NCBI GenBank assembly: GCA_025450755.1 | Contig: JANWLR010000062.1 | Span: forward strand, 1-64,000 | DNA from: Sphingomicrobium sp. | GTDB taxonomy: Bacteria; Pseudomonadota; Alphaproteobacteria; Sphingomonadales; Sphingomonadaceae | Reading direction: 5' to 3' | DNA: 64,000 nucleotides | In this document: in pieces, positions 12,386-16,568 of the stretch | Numbering within the stretch: the first letter of the stretch is position 1 | How the letters are laid out: every line of letters begins with the position of its first letter | The notes under the pieces: model-generated | What the model was told of the DNA's origin: nothing | What the model saw: the letters and a program-made list of their open reading frames with translations, nothing else | Database searches by the model: none | Made by a program: the position numbers and the translations under genes

Positions 12386-12537
12386 TTATACCCCGCCTCT
12401 CGAATTGGTTTTGCCAGCCGCCGCGCGCCCACGCGAGCTTAATTCCCGATTGTTCTCAGGCCATTGAATGCAATCTGAATTTTCAGGAAAAATCAGTGCT
12501 TCGCCGGCCCTGTCCGAATGGGCTAGGAACGGTTAAC

Positions 12538-14316
12538 ATGTCAATAAGAAGGCTCCCCCCCGAACTCGTCAATCGCATCGCCGCCGGCGAGGTCGTCGAG
12601 CGGCCCGCAAGTGCCTTGAAAGAATTGGTTGAAAATTCACTCGACTCCGGCGCGAAAGGGGTCGCCATTCGGCTTCATGCCGGCGGCCTCGAGCTTATCG
12701 AGCTGGCCGATGATGGCAGCGGCATGAGCCGCGACGAGATGCGCCTCTCGCTCGAGCGGCATGCGACCTCGAAGCTGTCCGGGGATGCAATCGACCAGGT
12801 CACCAGCTTCGGCTTCCGTGGGGAAGCCTTGCCCTCAATCGCAAGCGTGTCGCGGCTTACGCTCGAGAGCCGGGTCCGCGGCGGTGACGGTTGGCGAATC
12901 GAGATCGACCATGGCCAGGATCTGGGGGAGGGACCGGCGGCGCTTCCCCCGGGCACCCGAATTAGGGTCGAAGGGCTGTTTGACAAGGTACCGGCTCGGC
13001 GGAAGTTCTTGCGTTCGCCGCGAGCGGAATATGCCGCGTGTCTCGATGCCGTGAAGCGGCTCGCCATGGCGCGGAGCGATGTTGCATTCACGCTCGACCA
13101 TGACGGGCGGCGTATCCTGACGCTGCAGCCGTCGCCGCCTCCGGCTCGCGTCGCCGAGCTATTGAGCCACGAGCTGGACCGCCATGGCATCGGCATCGAC
13201 TGCACCCGAAATGGCCTGAGACTCACCGGCGTAATCGGCCTTCCGACGTTCAACCGCGGGGTGGCTGATCAGCAATTTCTGTTTGTGAATTCACGGCCGG
13301 TGAAGGACAGGTTACTGGTCGGGGCGCTAAGAGCAGCCTTTCGCGACCTGATCGCCCGCGACCGGCATCCAATTGCTGCTCTGTTCCTCGACATCCCGCT
13401 CAGCGAAGTGGACGTCAACGTCCATCCAGCCAAAACCGAGGTGCGGTTTCGCGATCCTGCCGAAGTACGCGGCCTCATCATTGGCGGCCTGCGACGGGCA
13501 TTGGACGAGGAAAGCCAGCGGAGCGCCGCGCGCGAGCAGGCAGCAGCGCCGGTCATGTGGACGACCAGCGAGAGCTTCCCCTCCCTGGCCGGGGAGCGGA
13601 CAGCCGAACCTAGCGTGACAGGGGTGGGTCTCGCGCATACCCTCCCCTCAATCCCCACGGTCATCAGGGAGGGAAGGGCCCTCTTCGAACTTGCTCCCGC
13701 CGCTCGCGCCGAGCCTGCGGTCGAGCCCATTTCGGCCTACCCGCTGGGAGTAGCGCGCGGACAAGTCGCTGCCACCTACATCGTTGCCGAAACCGAAGAC
13801 GGATTGATTATTGTGGATCAGCATGCTGCGCACGAACGGCTGGTCCTCGAGCGTCTGCGCGCTGCACGCGAGGGCGCATCGACCGCAGGTCAGGCGCTTC
13901 TTATTCCGGAAGTAGTCGAGCTCGAAGAGCCGGACTGCGATCGTCTCGAGAGTTGCGCTTCCGACCTGGAGTCGATGGGTCTTGAACTGGAGCGATTCGG
14001 ACCGACGAGCATGTTGGTTCGCTCGGTTCCGGCTGCGCTCGGCAAGACGGACGCGGCAGCATTGCTTGCCGATATGGCGGCCGAAATCGCCGAGCTCGGT
14101 GGTCCGCTGAGCCTGCGCGACAAGCTGGATCGCGTCGCGGCGACGATCGCCTGCCACGGCTCCGTCCGGGCGGGCCGAATCCTTTCGATCGCGGAGATGA
14201 ATGCGCTCCTGCGCGAGATGGAGGTCACGCCGAGATCGGGGCAATGCAATCATGGCCGGCCGACATGGGTGAAGCTCGGGCATGCCGAGATCGAAAAGCT
14301 GTTCGGCCGAAGATAG
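12538..14316 (+). CDS. mutL: DNA mismatch repair protein MutL (endonuclease type)
   Basis: MutL couples MutS mismatch recognition to strand removal. The ATG at 12538 follows AGGA at nine bases and gives the standard N-terminus MSIRRLPPELVNRIAAGEV; an in-frame ATG 14 codons upstream is less likely. The GHKL ATPase motifs are ELVENSLDSGA (about residue 33), DDGSGM and GFRGEAL. The C-terminal domain has the metal-binding endonuclease motif DQHAAHERLVLE and the CNHGRPTW motif, so this MutL should nick DNA itself, as in bacteria without MutH. Length is 592 residues. Confidence 0.96.
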   Translation: MSIRRLPPELVNRIAAGEVVERPASALKELVENSLDSGAKGVAIRLHAGGLELIELADDGSGMSRDEMRLSLERHATSKLSGDAIDQVTSFGFRGEALPSIASVSRLTLESRVRGGDGWRIEIDHGQDLGEGPAALPPGTRIRVEGLFDKVPARRKFLRSPRAEYAACLDAVKRLAMARSDVAFTLDHDGRRILTLQPSPPPARVAELLSHELDRHGIGIDCTRNGLRLTGVIGLPTFNRGVADQQFLFVNSRPVKDRLLVGALRAAFRDLIARDRHPIAALFLDIPLSEVDVNVHPAKTEVRFRDPAEVRGLIIGGLRRALDEESQRSAAREQAAAPVMWTTSESFPSLAGERTAEPSVTGVGLAHTLPSIPTVIREGRALFELAPAARAEPAVEPISAYPLGVARGQVAATYIVAETEDGLIIVDQHAAHERLVLERLRAAREGASTAGQALLIPEVVELEEPDCDRLESCASDLESMGLELERFGPTSMLVRSVPAALGKTDAAALLADMAAEIAELGGPLSLRDKLDRVAATIACHGSVRAGRILSIAEMNALLREMEVTPRSGQCNHGRPTWVKLGHAEIEKLFGRR

Positions 14317-14349
14317 CTTGCTCGAAAGCTTTCCATTGGTAAGGACGTT

Positions 14350-14404
14350 ATGAAGGGAATGGGGTCTCCCGTTTAACCGCCGATCGGCTGATGGCTCCTA
14401 CAGG
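14350..14404 (+). promoter_or_regulatory. Fluoride riboswitch (crcB RNA motif)
   Basis: The leader of crcB carries the hallmarks of the fluoride aptamer. One stem is GGGA (14355-14358) pairing with TCCC (14367-14370) across an ATGGGGTC loop. TTAACC follows, then a short hairpin GCC-GATC-GGC. Directly after it is the conserved 3' segment CTGATGGCTCCTACAG (14388-14403). The loop GGGG can pair with CTCC of the 3' segment to form the pseudoknot. The layout matches the Pseudomonas syringae and Thermotoga aptamers as I remember them. The AGGGGG ribosome site lies about 20 bases downstream, so control of translation or of early termination is plausible. Genes served: crcB and ppa. Confidence 0.85.
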
Positions 14405-14429
14405 CGCAGTCGTGCAGCAGTAGGGGGTT

Positions 14430-14813
14430 ATGCTTTACCTAATCGTCTTCATCGGAGCTGGAATCGGCGGCGCGCTTCGCCATGGCGTCAATGTCGGTGC
14501 AACGAAGCTATTCGGCTACGGATTCCCGTTCGGCACCTTCATCGTGAACGTAATCGGCTCGTTCGCTATGGGCCTACTTGCAGGTTTCTTTGCTTATCGA
14601 GCCGGCATTCCGCAGCACGTTCGGCTATTCCTCACGACCGGCATTCTCGGCGGTTTCACGACCTTTTCGACATTTTCTCTGGACGCTGCGCTGCTCATCG
14701 AACGGCATTCATTTGGCGCTGCCGCCGGATATCTCGTCGGCTCGGTCGCAGCAGGACTTGCTGCATTGTTCTTCGGTCTGGCGGTGTTTAGGAGCGCCGG
14801 TCACGTGCCATGA
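14430..14813 (+). CDS. crcB: Fluoride exporter FluC/CrcB
   Basis: The protein is a dual-topology fluoride channel of 127 residues with four membrane helices. The family signatures GGALRHGVN near the start, FGTFIVNVIGSF in helix 2 and TTGILGGFTTFSTFS in helix 3 are all present; the last holds the phenylalanine-box and threonine residues of the pore. It is a single gene, so it should work as a homodimer. A fluoride riboswitch lies immediately upstream, and its stop overlaps the ppa start as ATGA. Confidence 0.95.
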   Translation: MLYLIVFIGAGIGGALRHGVNVGATKLFGYGFPFGTFIVNVIGSFAMGLLAGFFAYRAGIPQHVRLFLTTGILGGFTTFSTFSLDAALLIERHSFGAAAGYLVGSVAAGLAALFFGLAVFRSAGHVP

Positions 14814-15355
14814 ATATCGAACTCATCCCAGCCGGGAACAATCCCCCCGAAAACATCAATGTCATCATCGAGGTCCCGGTTGGGGGGGAGCCGGTGAAGT
14901 ACGAATTCGACAAGAAGTCGGGAGCGCTCTTCGTCGACCGGATCCTTCATACGCCAATGCGCTACCCGGCGAACTATGGCTTCGTCCCCCATACTTTGTC
15001 GCCCGACGGCGATCCCCTCGACGCGCTGGTGATCGCGCGCTCGCCCTTCGTCCCTGGGTGTGTTGTGCGCGCCCGCCCGATCGGAGTTCTGCATCTCGAG
15101 GATGAGCACGGTGGTGACGAGAAGCTGATCTGCGTCCCGATCGATTCAACCTTCCCTTATTATTCCGACGTCGGTGAGCGGCAGGACCTGCCGTCGATCG
15201 TCCTCCAGCAGATCGAACATTTCTTCACCCACTATAAGGACCTCGAAAAGGAAAAGTGGGTGCGCGTCGGTCACTGGGGCGACGCCGCTGATGCGCGGCA
15301 GATCGTCGATGAGGCAATCAAGCGCGCGCAGCACGCCCTGGCTGGTACAGTCTGA
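14810..15355 (+). CDS. ppa: Inorganic pyrophosphatase
   Basis: The enzyme hydrolyses pyrophosphate to phosphate and so drives biosynthetic reactions. The 181-residue protein is a family I soluble pyrophosphatase, with YEFDKKSGALFVDRIL, YPANYGFVPHT and the metal-binding motif DGDPLDALV. The ATG overlaps the crcB stop by four bases, so the two are translationally coupled and lie behind the fluoride riboswitch. Fluoride is a classical inhibitor of this enzyme, which makes the pairing functionally coherent. Confidence 0.96.
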   Translation: MNIELIPAGNNPPENINVIIEVPVGGEPVKYEFDKKSGALFVDRILHTPMRYPANYGFVPHTLSPDGDPLDALVIARSPFVPGCVVRARPIGVLHLEDEHGGDEKLICVPIDSTFPYYSDVGERQDLPSIVLQQIEHFFTHYKDLEKEKWVRVGHWGDAADARQIVDEAIKRAQHALAGTV

Positions 15356-15410
15356 CACGACTTTTACGGGCGTTTTTGGTAAGGCATTCCGATTGAAGAG
15401 GAGGCGCGCC

Positions 15411-15590
15411 ATGGCCGCGCACGACAGAATCTATTTTGCTCAACGGGCGGCGGAAGAGCAGGAGGCGGCGATAGCCGCGTCGGATCCGAGTGTTGCGGAA
15501 GCGCACCGCAAATTACAGCGCGTCTACCTCGAGCGCGCCAGCGTTGGCGATCGACAAGCTGACGTTTCTTCCCCTGCCGATTCCGACTGA
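15411..15590 (+). CDS. Small conserved-looking hypothetical protein
   Basis: The 59-residue product (MAAHDRIYFAQRAAEEQEAA...) is hydrophilic and mostly helical. A strong ribosome site (AGAGGAGG) precedes the ATG by about seven bases. It resembles the short proteins, with YFxxRAxxExxxA and HxxLxxxYxxR segments, that occur widely in sphingomonads. It has no membrane segment or signal and its role is unknown. It follows ppa by about 55 bases and could be co-transcribed. Confidence 0.7.
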   Translation: MAAHDRIYFAQRAAEEQEAAIAASDPSVAEAHRKLQRVYLERASVGDRQADVSSPADSD

Positions 15591-15755
15591 ATTTCGTTCT
15601 TCCGGGCCTCTTGGACAGTGGTTTTGTTGTCACGGTGGGCCGAGAATCGTTCGTTAATAGCGCTGTTTTGCGGCTTGGTTTGTGGCGATTGGCGCAAAAT
15701 TGTCACATACGACCTTCGCTTTCCGGTCGCTTACGACCCAAAAGGAGGATGTCTG

Positions 15756-16568
15756 GTGAGAAAGCTTTTTATTCTTGGTGCGCTGTGCACCACGGCGCTT
15801 GTCGCGTCGCCCGCCTTTGCCGAAGCGCCCACGGGCCTTCGCATTGAAGGTCTGGTTGGCTTCGACAAGCTGATCAAGAAAGACAATGTTTTCTCAGACC
15901 AAGCTGCTGGGACCTATGATTTCGGCCGCATGTTCGACACGTCGCTCGTTTATGGTGGACGCGTCGGGTACGATTTTGGCTTTGGCGGTTTCGCGCTTGG
16001 CGTCGACGGCGAGGTGACCAACACCAGTGCCGAAGACATCAAGGTGGTCAACTCGCTTACCACCGGCTTGCGTCGCCGGTTCAGCTACAAGGGCGGTATC
16101 GACCTGTACGCAGGCGTGCGCGCTACGGCTGCGATTAGCGACAATATCGATGCATATGTGCTGGGCGGTTATACCAACCTGCACCTGAAAGAGCGTTTGT
16201 ATGACGTCGATCTTGCTGATGCGACCGACTTGACGCTGCTCGAATCGAACAACCATTCGCGTGGCGGCTGGCGCGTAGGTGCCGGCCTTCACTTTGGTGA
16301 CGGCCACTGGTTCGGCGGTCCCGAATATCGCTACTCGCATTACAGCGGCGGCTACACCCGCAGTCAGTTCCTGCTGACGGCTGGCTATCGCTTCTTCACC
16401 GTGGCGCCTCCGCCTCCGCCTCCGCCGCCTCCGCCGCCTCCGCCGCCTCCGCCGCCACCCGCGACGCAGACGTGCCCGGACGGATCGGTGATTTTGGCGA
16501 CGGCGACGTGTCCGGCTCCGCCGCCTCCGCCTCCGCCTCCGCCTCCGGCGCCAGAGCGCGGCCTCTAA
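15756..16568 (+). CDS. Outer-membrane beta-barrel protein with polyproline tail
   Basis: The GTG at 15756 follows AAAGGAGG and gives a perfect signal peptide (MRKLFILGALCTTALVASPAFA). Residues about 25-210 form an eight-strand OmpA/OprF-like barrel with alternating hydrophobic residues and aromatic strand ends, for example GGPEYRYSHYSGG and LLTAGYRFF. After the barrel come 18 consecutive prolines, the segment ATQTCPDGSVILATATCPA, another ten prolines and a short end (APERGL). Usual relatives carry a peptidoglycan-binding OmpA domain after the proline linker, but here a stop and a strong terminator follow. The tail is therefore either a deliberate anchorless form or a truncation. Two cysteines in the tail could form a disulphide. 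Confidence 0.85.
   Translation: MRKLFILGALCTTALVASPAFAEAPTGLRIEGLVGFDKLIKKDNVFSDQAAGTYDFGRMFDTSLVYGGRVGYDFGFGGFALGVDGEVTNTSAEDIKVVNSLTTGLRRRFSYKGGIDLYAGVRATAAISDNIDAYVLGGYTNLHLKERLYDVDLADATDLTLLESNNHSRGGWRVGAGLHFGDGHWFGGPEYRYSHYSGGYTRSQFLLTAGYRFFTVAPPPPPPPPPPPPPPPPPPATQTCPDGSVILATATCPAPPPPPPPPPPAPERGL

Follow-up and report, generated by a model that had tools for sequence, protein, structure and literature searches.

The crcB-ppa locus described here is quite probably a fluoride-induced two-gene unit, in which a riboswitch of the translational ON type would govern both a fluoride exporter and a soluble inorganic pyrophosphatase, as judged from sequence comparisons. The locus lies in a window of 64,000 nucleotides from a Sphingomicrobium sp. 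genome (contig JANWLR010000062.1, positions 1 to 64,000; assembly 84% complete) and comprises the following features, given in window coordinates:

12541-14316, plus strand: mutL, an open reading frame (NF000953, 799.3 bits against a cut-off of 693)
14318-14323, plus strand: TTGCTC, a candidate -35-like hexamer recognized by eye
14340-14345, plus strand: TAAGGA, a candidate -10-like hexamer preceded by TGG, recognized by eye and missed by a strict consensus scan
14346-14407, plus strand: fluoride riboswitch aptamer (RF01734 covariance model, 50.0 bits, E = 7e-11)
14361-14364, plus strand: GGGG in the first aptamer loop, read from the sequence
14395-14401, plus strand: CTCCTAC, the aptamer 3′ strand, a putative pseudoknot partner when ligand is bound and a putative anti-Shine-Dalgarno strand when free
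14420-14426, plus strand: GTAGGGG, the crcB Shine-Dalgarno region, complementary to 14395-14401 (duplex energy, -11.3 kcal/mol)
14430-14813, plus strand: crcB, fluoride exporter (Fluc), 127 aa (PF02537, 92.3 bits; NF010794, 159.7 bits)
14810-15355, plus strand: ppa, soluble family I inorganic pyrophosphatase, 181 aa (PF00719, 193.2 bits; NF002317, 259.4 bits)

A cmscan search of the whole window matched RF01734 once, over the full length of the model (positions 1 to 64 of 64) and above its gathering score (50.0 versus 34 bits); the only other Rfam matches above threshold in the 64 kb were two tRNAs. The preliminary description of this stretch had recognized a fluoride aptamer in the leader by its letters, and the covariance search bears this out, the earlier start of 14350 falling 4 bases inside the match. 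The loop GGGG (14361-14364) is able to pair with CTCC at 14395-14398, with one G-U pair, an interaction that would correspond to the pseudoknot of the published structure, which forms upon ligand binding and closes the ion site. Core positions are mostly invariant over the six leaders of the crcB-ppa clade, and the same aptamer class occurs 5′ of a lone crcB in G558 and of a chloride-channel-family (CLC)-like gene in G122. In the latter (L046, 1501-1577), a 452-aa open frame, CLC-like by eye, stands in place of crcB, and its leader displays complementarity between tail and ribosome site as in the crcB leaders.

The same 3′ strand that would close the pseudoknot can instead form six Watson-Crick pairs and one G-U pair with the crcB Shine-Dalgarno region (14395-14401 with 14420-14426); since the two pairings are mutually exclusive, the ribosome site should become accessible upon fluoride binding. 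We presume that this resembles fluoride riboswitches of the Pseudomonas syringae type, in which the aptamer 3′ strand also belongs to the expression platform and, without ligand, hides the Shine-Dalgarno sequence. We compared the 13 leaders scoring above the cut-off (from 8 of 71 genus genomes and 5 of 119 family genomes outside the genus; three sub-cut-off family leaders, in G041, G018, and G099, were excluded), and found tail-to-Shine-Dalgarno complementarity in all 13, at -8.3 to -15.1 kcal/mol each. The summed energy was -140.4 for the native sites, compared with a mean of -79.4 (standard deviation, 8.2; lowest, -103.2) for letter-shuffled sites; when sites were re-dealt among leaders, 148 of 20,000 permutations were as low as the native arrangement, in a test that ignores relatedness and that counts both G024 and G109, whose tails and sites are identical. 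Pairing is kept despite sequence change: the tail ATTCC faces GGAAT in G122, G083, and G027, and the tail CTCC faces GGGG in this genome and GGAG in other leaders. Folded by itself, the segment running from the tail to the start codon adopts this register in 10 of the 13 leaders and a shifted helix in G152, G024, and G109. Among whole-leader minimum-energy folds of the six pair-clade leaders, the helix is complete for G149, G159, G130, and G157, reduced to five of its seven pairs for this genome, and again shifted for G152. Folding energies of these six leaders were no better than those of shuffled sequences (z, -0.66 to 0.93), and we dropped folding energy as a sign of structure. Taken together, the leaders point to control by hiding of the ribosome-binding site rather than by a terminator (the preliminary description proposed no mechanism), and the putative shared-strand platform across the family sample adds to what was known.

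Both genes exceed curated cut-offs, crcB for PF02537 (92.3 versus 32.9 bits) and for NF010794, “fluoride efflux transporter CrcB” (159.7 versus 125), and ppa for PF00719 and for NF002317, “inorganic diphosphatase” (259.4 versus 200), so the exporter-pyrophosphatase pair named in the preliminary description is borne out in identity and order. CrcB residues G74, G75, F76, T77, T78, F79, and S80, followed by F82 and S83, are invariant in 14 sequences and presumably represent the conserved GGFTTFS-FS stretch of CrcB/Fluc proteins. Most of the Ppa sequence can be aligned with pyrophosphatases of solved structure (best, 3fq3; E = 1.9e-70), and 37 distinct solved sequences match it at E ≤ 1e-20, including chains such as 1faj, which we take to be the Escherichia coli enzyme.

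The crcB stop overlaps the ppa start as ATGA at 14810-14813, as had been read earlier. Shine-Dalgarno pairing ahead of ppa is weak in this genome (-2.9 kcal/mol); across the genus, it averages -3.0 in the 15 paired ppa genes versus -5.0 in 22 solo genes, the latter from only those genus members whose loci were fetched (P = 0.02, uncorrected), and 5 of the 15 paired genes are at -4.8 or lower. The weak ppa ribosome site thus agrees, to a modest degree, with a translational coupling of ppa to crcB. The ATGA is not conserved: a gap separates the two genes in G149, G152, G123, G154, G140, and G167. As to ancestry, the crcB of this genome is nearest to that of G149 (91%), with ppa only 79% identical to the G149 gene and 90% identical to those of the switch-less relatives G154, G155, and G177; recombination may have exchanged ppa, leaving a locus of mosaic ancestry.

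A gap of 29 bases separates the end of mutL (for which a longer GTG frame begins at 12496) from the aptamer match, and the pattern TTGCTC-N16-TAAGGA (14318-14345) ends where that match starts; the TGG before TAAGGA is presumably of the extended -10 type. A rule of the form TTG-N16..18-TA, fixed after inspection of the leaders, picks out such a pair just 5′ of the aptamer in 8 leaders of the 12 entered (G109 being left out), the 6 from the crcB-ppa clade all among them, versus a mean of 0.275 and a maximum of 3 in shuffled leaders; G558, G122, G024, and G027 fail it. We treat the TTG-N16-TA pair as a promoter candidate before the aptamer and as a lead only. A strict sigma-70 scan returned no site in 12400-15800 (shuffle mean, 0.7) and is insensitive, in that it also misses this promoter-like pair. 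The internal promoter that had been suggested for ppa gains nothing from the same scan, which found none in crcB; given that insensitivity, this counts weakly against the idea. If the switch is translational, transcripts reading through from mutL would come under the same control.

The pairing of crcB with ppa is a minority arrangement, and the switch is rarer still. The two genes are neighbors in 15 of 61 genus genomes, and the aptamer precedes 6 of these pairs: G000 (this genome), G149, G159, G152, G130, and G157. No aptamer was found at the other nine pairs, permissive thresholds included, and among the 56 genus genomes with a crcB match, 6 have the switch before crcB. In seven of the nine switch-less pairs, the crcB start lies no farther than about 20 bases from an upstream gene: it falls next to the mutL stop in G154, G161, G148, G155, and G167, and at the end of an apparent other gene in G177 and G128, with neither arrangement clear in G123 and G140. 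Among the six switch-bearing pair genomes (of which only G152 and G130 are >90% complete), five yield no PF00719 match besides the paired ppa; the sixth, G130, contains a second, distant one. Beyond the genus, crcB and ppa stand side by side in 1 of 119 genomes of the family sample, namely this one (positions compared by eye). The class sample (385 genomes) holds 28 other switch loci, sub-cut-off matches included, with L170 ordered switch-crcB-ppa and L158 ordered ppa-switch-crcB. No ppa was detected at E ≤ 1e-4 in flanks of up to 3 kb at 80 crcB loci, which are the best of the matches listed in the genome_contigs collection (a set that may omit close relatives); one 42-residue match had an E value of 5.8.

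The ppa genes of the pairs fall into a well-supported clade (100/98) that also contains three unpaired genes and is separate from the lineage of the G077 ppa, which adjoins a hisS-like gene (by eye). A single gain of the riboswitch is unsupported: explaining which loci have the switch takes at least two changes on the crcB tree and four on the ppa tree, and few forks are well supported. Several loci of this set show irregularities. In G157 (L030), the switch-associated crcB is broken across two reading frames, as is the paired ppa of G128 (L024), owing to either decay or assembly error. In G149 (L012) and G123 (L015), about 1.2 to 1.3 kb lie between mutL and crcB, and an apparent short repeat of the mutL 3′ end occurs directly 5′ of the aptamer or of crcB itself, a layout reminiscent of a DNA insertion accompanied by duplication of an end.

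The preliminary description had asked how a usually essential ppa is expressed when fluoride is absent, and had proposed a check for a second copy. PF00719 matches one gene in this genome, the ppa behind the switch, and no second soluble ppa was found in the 84%-complete assembly, so a further copy is possible. The puzzle itself is weakened by the presence, in 60 of 61 genus genomes including the present one, of a membrane ion-pumping pyrophosphatase (PF03030, H_PPase); the match in this genome covers positions 1 to 297 of 645 and starts 33 bases from a contig end, by which it is apparently cut. Family II pyrophosphatases (DHHA2) were found in none of the 61 genomes by a search that was positive in 5 of 14 control genomes. 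PF00719 is kept in 57 of the 61. The near-complete G141 (99%) and G144 (96%) are without PF00719 and DHHA2 and possess the PF03030 membrane enzyme; G163 (83% complete) has no PF00719 match but has PF03030, and in G134 (72%) neither was found. The soluble pyrophosphatase can thus probably be lost in the genus, going by these gene contents. In addition, a divergent PF00719 pyrophosphatase (about 92 to 110 bits) occurs in G125, G126, G130, G140, G151, and G154, and no other PF00719 match was found in G151.

The Rhodospirillum rubrum membrane enzyme is described as fluoride resistant and, in E. coli, is reported to substitute for the soluble enzyme, which is essential in that host, with a reduction in growth rate (PMC9959109). 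Because the membrane enzyme is widespread in the genus and the soluble one appears dispensable in relatives, cell survival without fluoride would be independent of the switch; we think that it does not hinge on the switch in this organism, the membrane-bound second pyrophosphatase being the probable reason that cells survive with the switch off. We entertain, as a tentative possibility, a more specific scenario for the switch-bearing members, in which the only soluble family I pyrophosphatase that they have now serves as a conditional enzyme of the fluoride response, made in quantity only upon fluoride entry, with everyday hydrolysis done by the membrane enzyme, whose class is described as fluoride resistant; the switch-less pairs and the sisters with no soluble enzyme would then be stages of the same shift.

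From these observations, we infer a fluoride response and its direction of control, a promoter, translational coupling, and a division of labor between pyrophosphatases, which would operate as follows. Transcription would begin just 5′ of the aptamer or read through from mutL. Without fluoride, the aptamer 3′ strand would pair with the crcB Shine-Dalgarno region, so that crcB is poorly translated and so, too, is the overlapping ppa, whose own ribosome site is weak; baseline pyrophosphate hydrolysis would then fall to the membrane ion-pumping pyrophosphatase plus leaky expression. With Mg-fluoride bound, the 3′ strand would be held in the pseudoknot, the ribosome site would be free, and the exporter would be made, with ppa translated after crcB through termination-reinitiation.

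The most serious rival holds that the switch acts, in practice, on crcB only, and that ppa is a housekeeping gene parked behind it, expressed about equally with and without fluoride through independent initiation or an internal promoter. Retention of PF00719 in most of the genus favors it, as does the status of ppa as the only PF00719 gene found in five of the six switch-bearing pair genomes; at switch-less pairs in which crcB closely follows the upstream stop, ppa is presumably constitutive. We nevertheless regard this reading as rather unlikely for the present locus: here, the ppa ribosome site is weak, the two genes overlap, and the strict (and insensitive) scan places no promoter inside crcB.

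Alternatively, the switch might act on transcription, through intrinsic or Rho-dependent termination, rather than on ribosome binding. Three of six leaders inspected from elsewhere in the class (G236, G290, and G534) do carry, by eye, a terminator-like stem and T run after the aptamer, and a translational block would be reinforced by Rho-dependent loss of the mRNA left untranslated. In this genome, however, no terminator-like site lies between 14407 and the crcB start codon at 14430 (the three such sites on the plus strand of 12400-15800 are all elsewhere), and the complementarity of tail and Shine-Dalgarno region in every one of the 13 leaders makes purely transcriptional control improbable. 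That the aptamer is decayed or a chance match, and functionless, is very improbable: its absence from nine of the genus pairs even in the permissive search indicates that it is readily gained or lost, but the match at this locus is full length at 50.0 bits, its core is mostly invariant in the pair clade, and aptamers of the same class precede other genes (the CLC-like gene of G122 and the lone crcB of G558). The fluoride-induced unit under translational control therefore remains our preferred reading.

There is a published precedent for a fluoride riboswitch governing a pyrophosphatase along with crcB, and the present locus adds a member of this kind in two-gene form, exporter first. Enterobacter cloacae FRM is reported to have one riboswitch at the head of ppaC-uspA-eno-gpmA-crcB-orf5249, on a genomic island, with fluoride raising ppaC mRNA about 100-fold and crcB mRNA about 10-fold and deletion of the ppaC-uspA-eno block lowering resistance (PMC5533749). 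Like the present locus, that operon places a pyrophosphatase and crcB under a single RF01734 riboswitch, and this precedent supports the general logic advanced in the preliminary description, namely, to expel the ion and top up the inhibited enzyme. The two differ in composition: the E. cloacae operon has six genes, with ppaC first and crcB fifth, whereas this locus has two overlapping genes, exporter first, behind mutL. They also differ in enzyme, that of E. cloacae FRM being listed as manganese dependent (PMC5533749), which would make it family II, whereas Ppa is family I, such that two enzyme families would have come under the same RNA switch. According to another report, at least two family II enzymes show no significant inhibition by NaF (PMC11210485), and the E. 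cloacae operon may, for this reason, supply a more tolerant enzyme. At this locus, a fluoride-sensitive family I enzyme itself appears to be under the switch, in line with the “top up” idea; as the family I enzyme is itself a fluoride target, inducing ppa would be a partial remedy at best.

A review of fluoride riboswitches names exporters as their commonest partners, with pyrophosphatase among the most frequent others, and puts about 15% of Fluc genes under such a switch (PMC11139923), to be set beside the 6 of 56 crcB-matching genomes of the genus sample; the crcB motif of that gene set, RF01734, is the aptamer class of this locus, with no difference in class. The closest parallel in arrangement is L170 (G424), from another alphaproteobacterial family, in which the fluoride aptamer is followed by crcB and ppa in the order seen here; its proteins are only 37% (CrcB) and 55% (Ppa) identical to those here, and its contig ends within ppa. 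Our literature search returned no paper joining crcB, Sphingomonas, fluoride, and riboswitch, and none joining the crcB motif and inorganic pyrophosphatase.

The locus is a compact, well-bounded case of a putatively fluoride-controlled pyrophosphatase, and its genus offers a natural comparison, with the pair preceded by the switch in 6 of 61 genomes, the pair without the switch in 9 of 61, and near-complete relatives in which no soluble pyrophosphatase was found. This comparison allows a test of whether an enzyme that is usually essential can come under the control of an ion-sensing switch when a second pyrophosphatase, in the membrane, meets the basal demand. The probable answer that the membrane enzyme gives to the essentiality question and the series with and without the switch in one genus are further useful additions.

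Two open frames 3′ of ppa have no Pfam or NCBIfam match. One, of 59 aa (15411-15590), lies just downstream and might be either a short gene of the crcB-ppa unit or nothing; the other (15756-16568) encodes a protein with long proline runs near its end and, by eye, an outer-membrane-type appearance.
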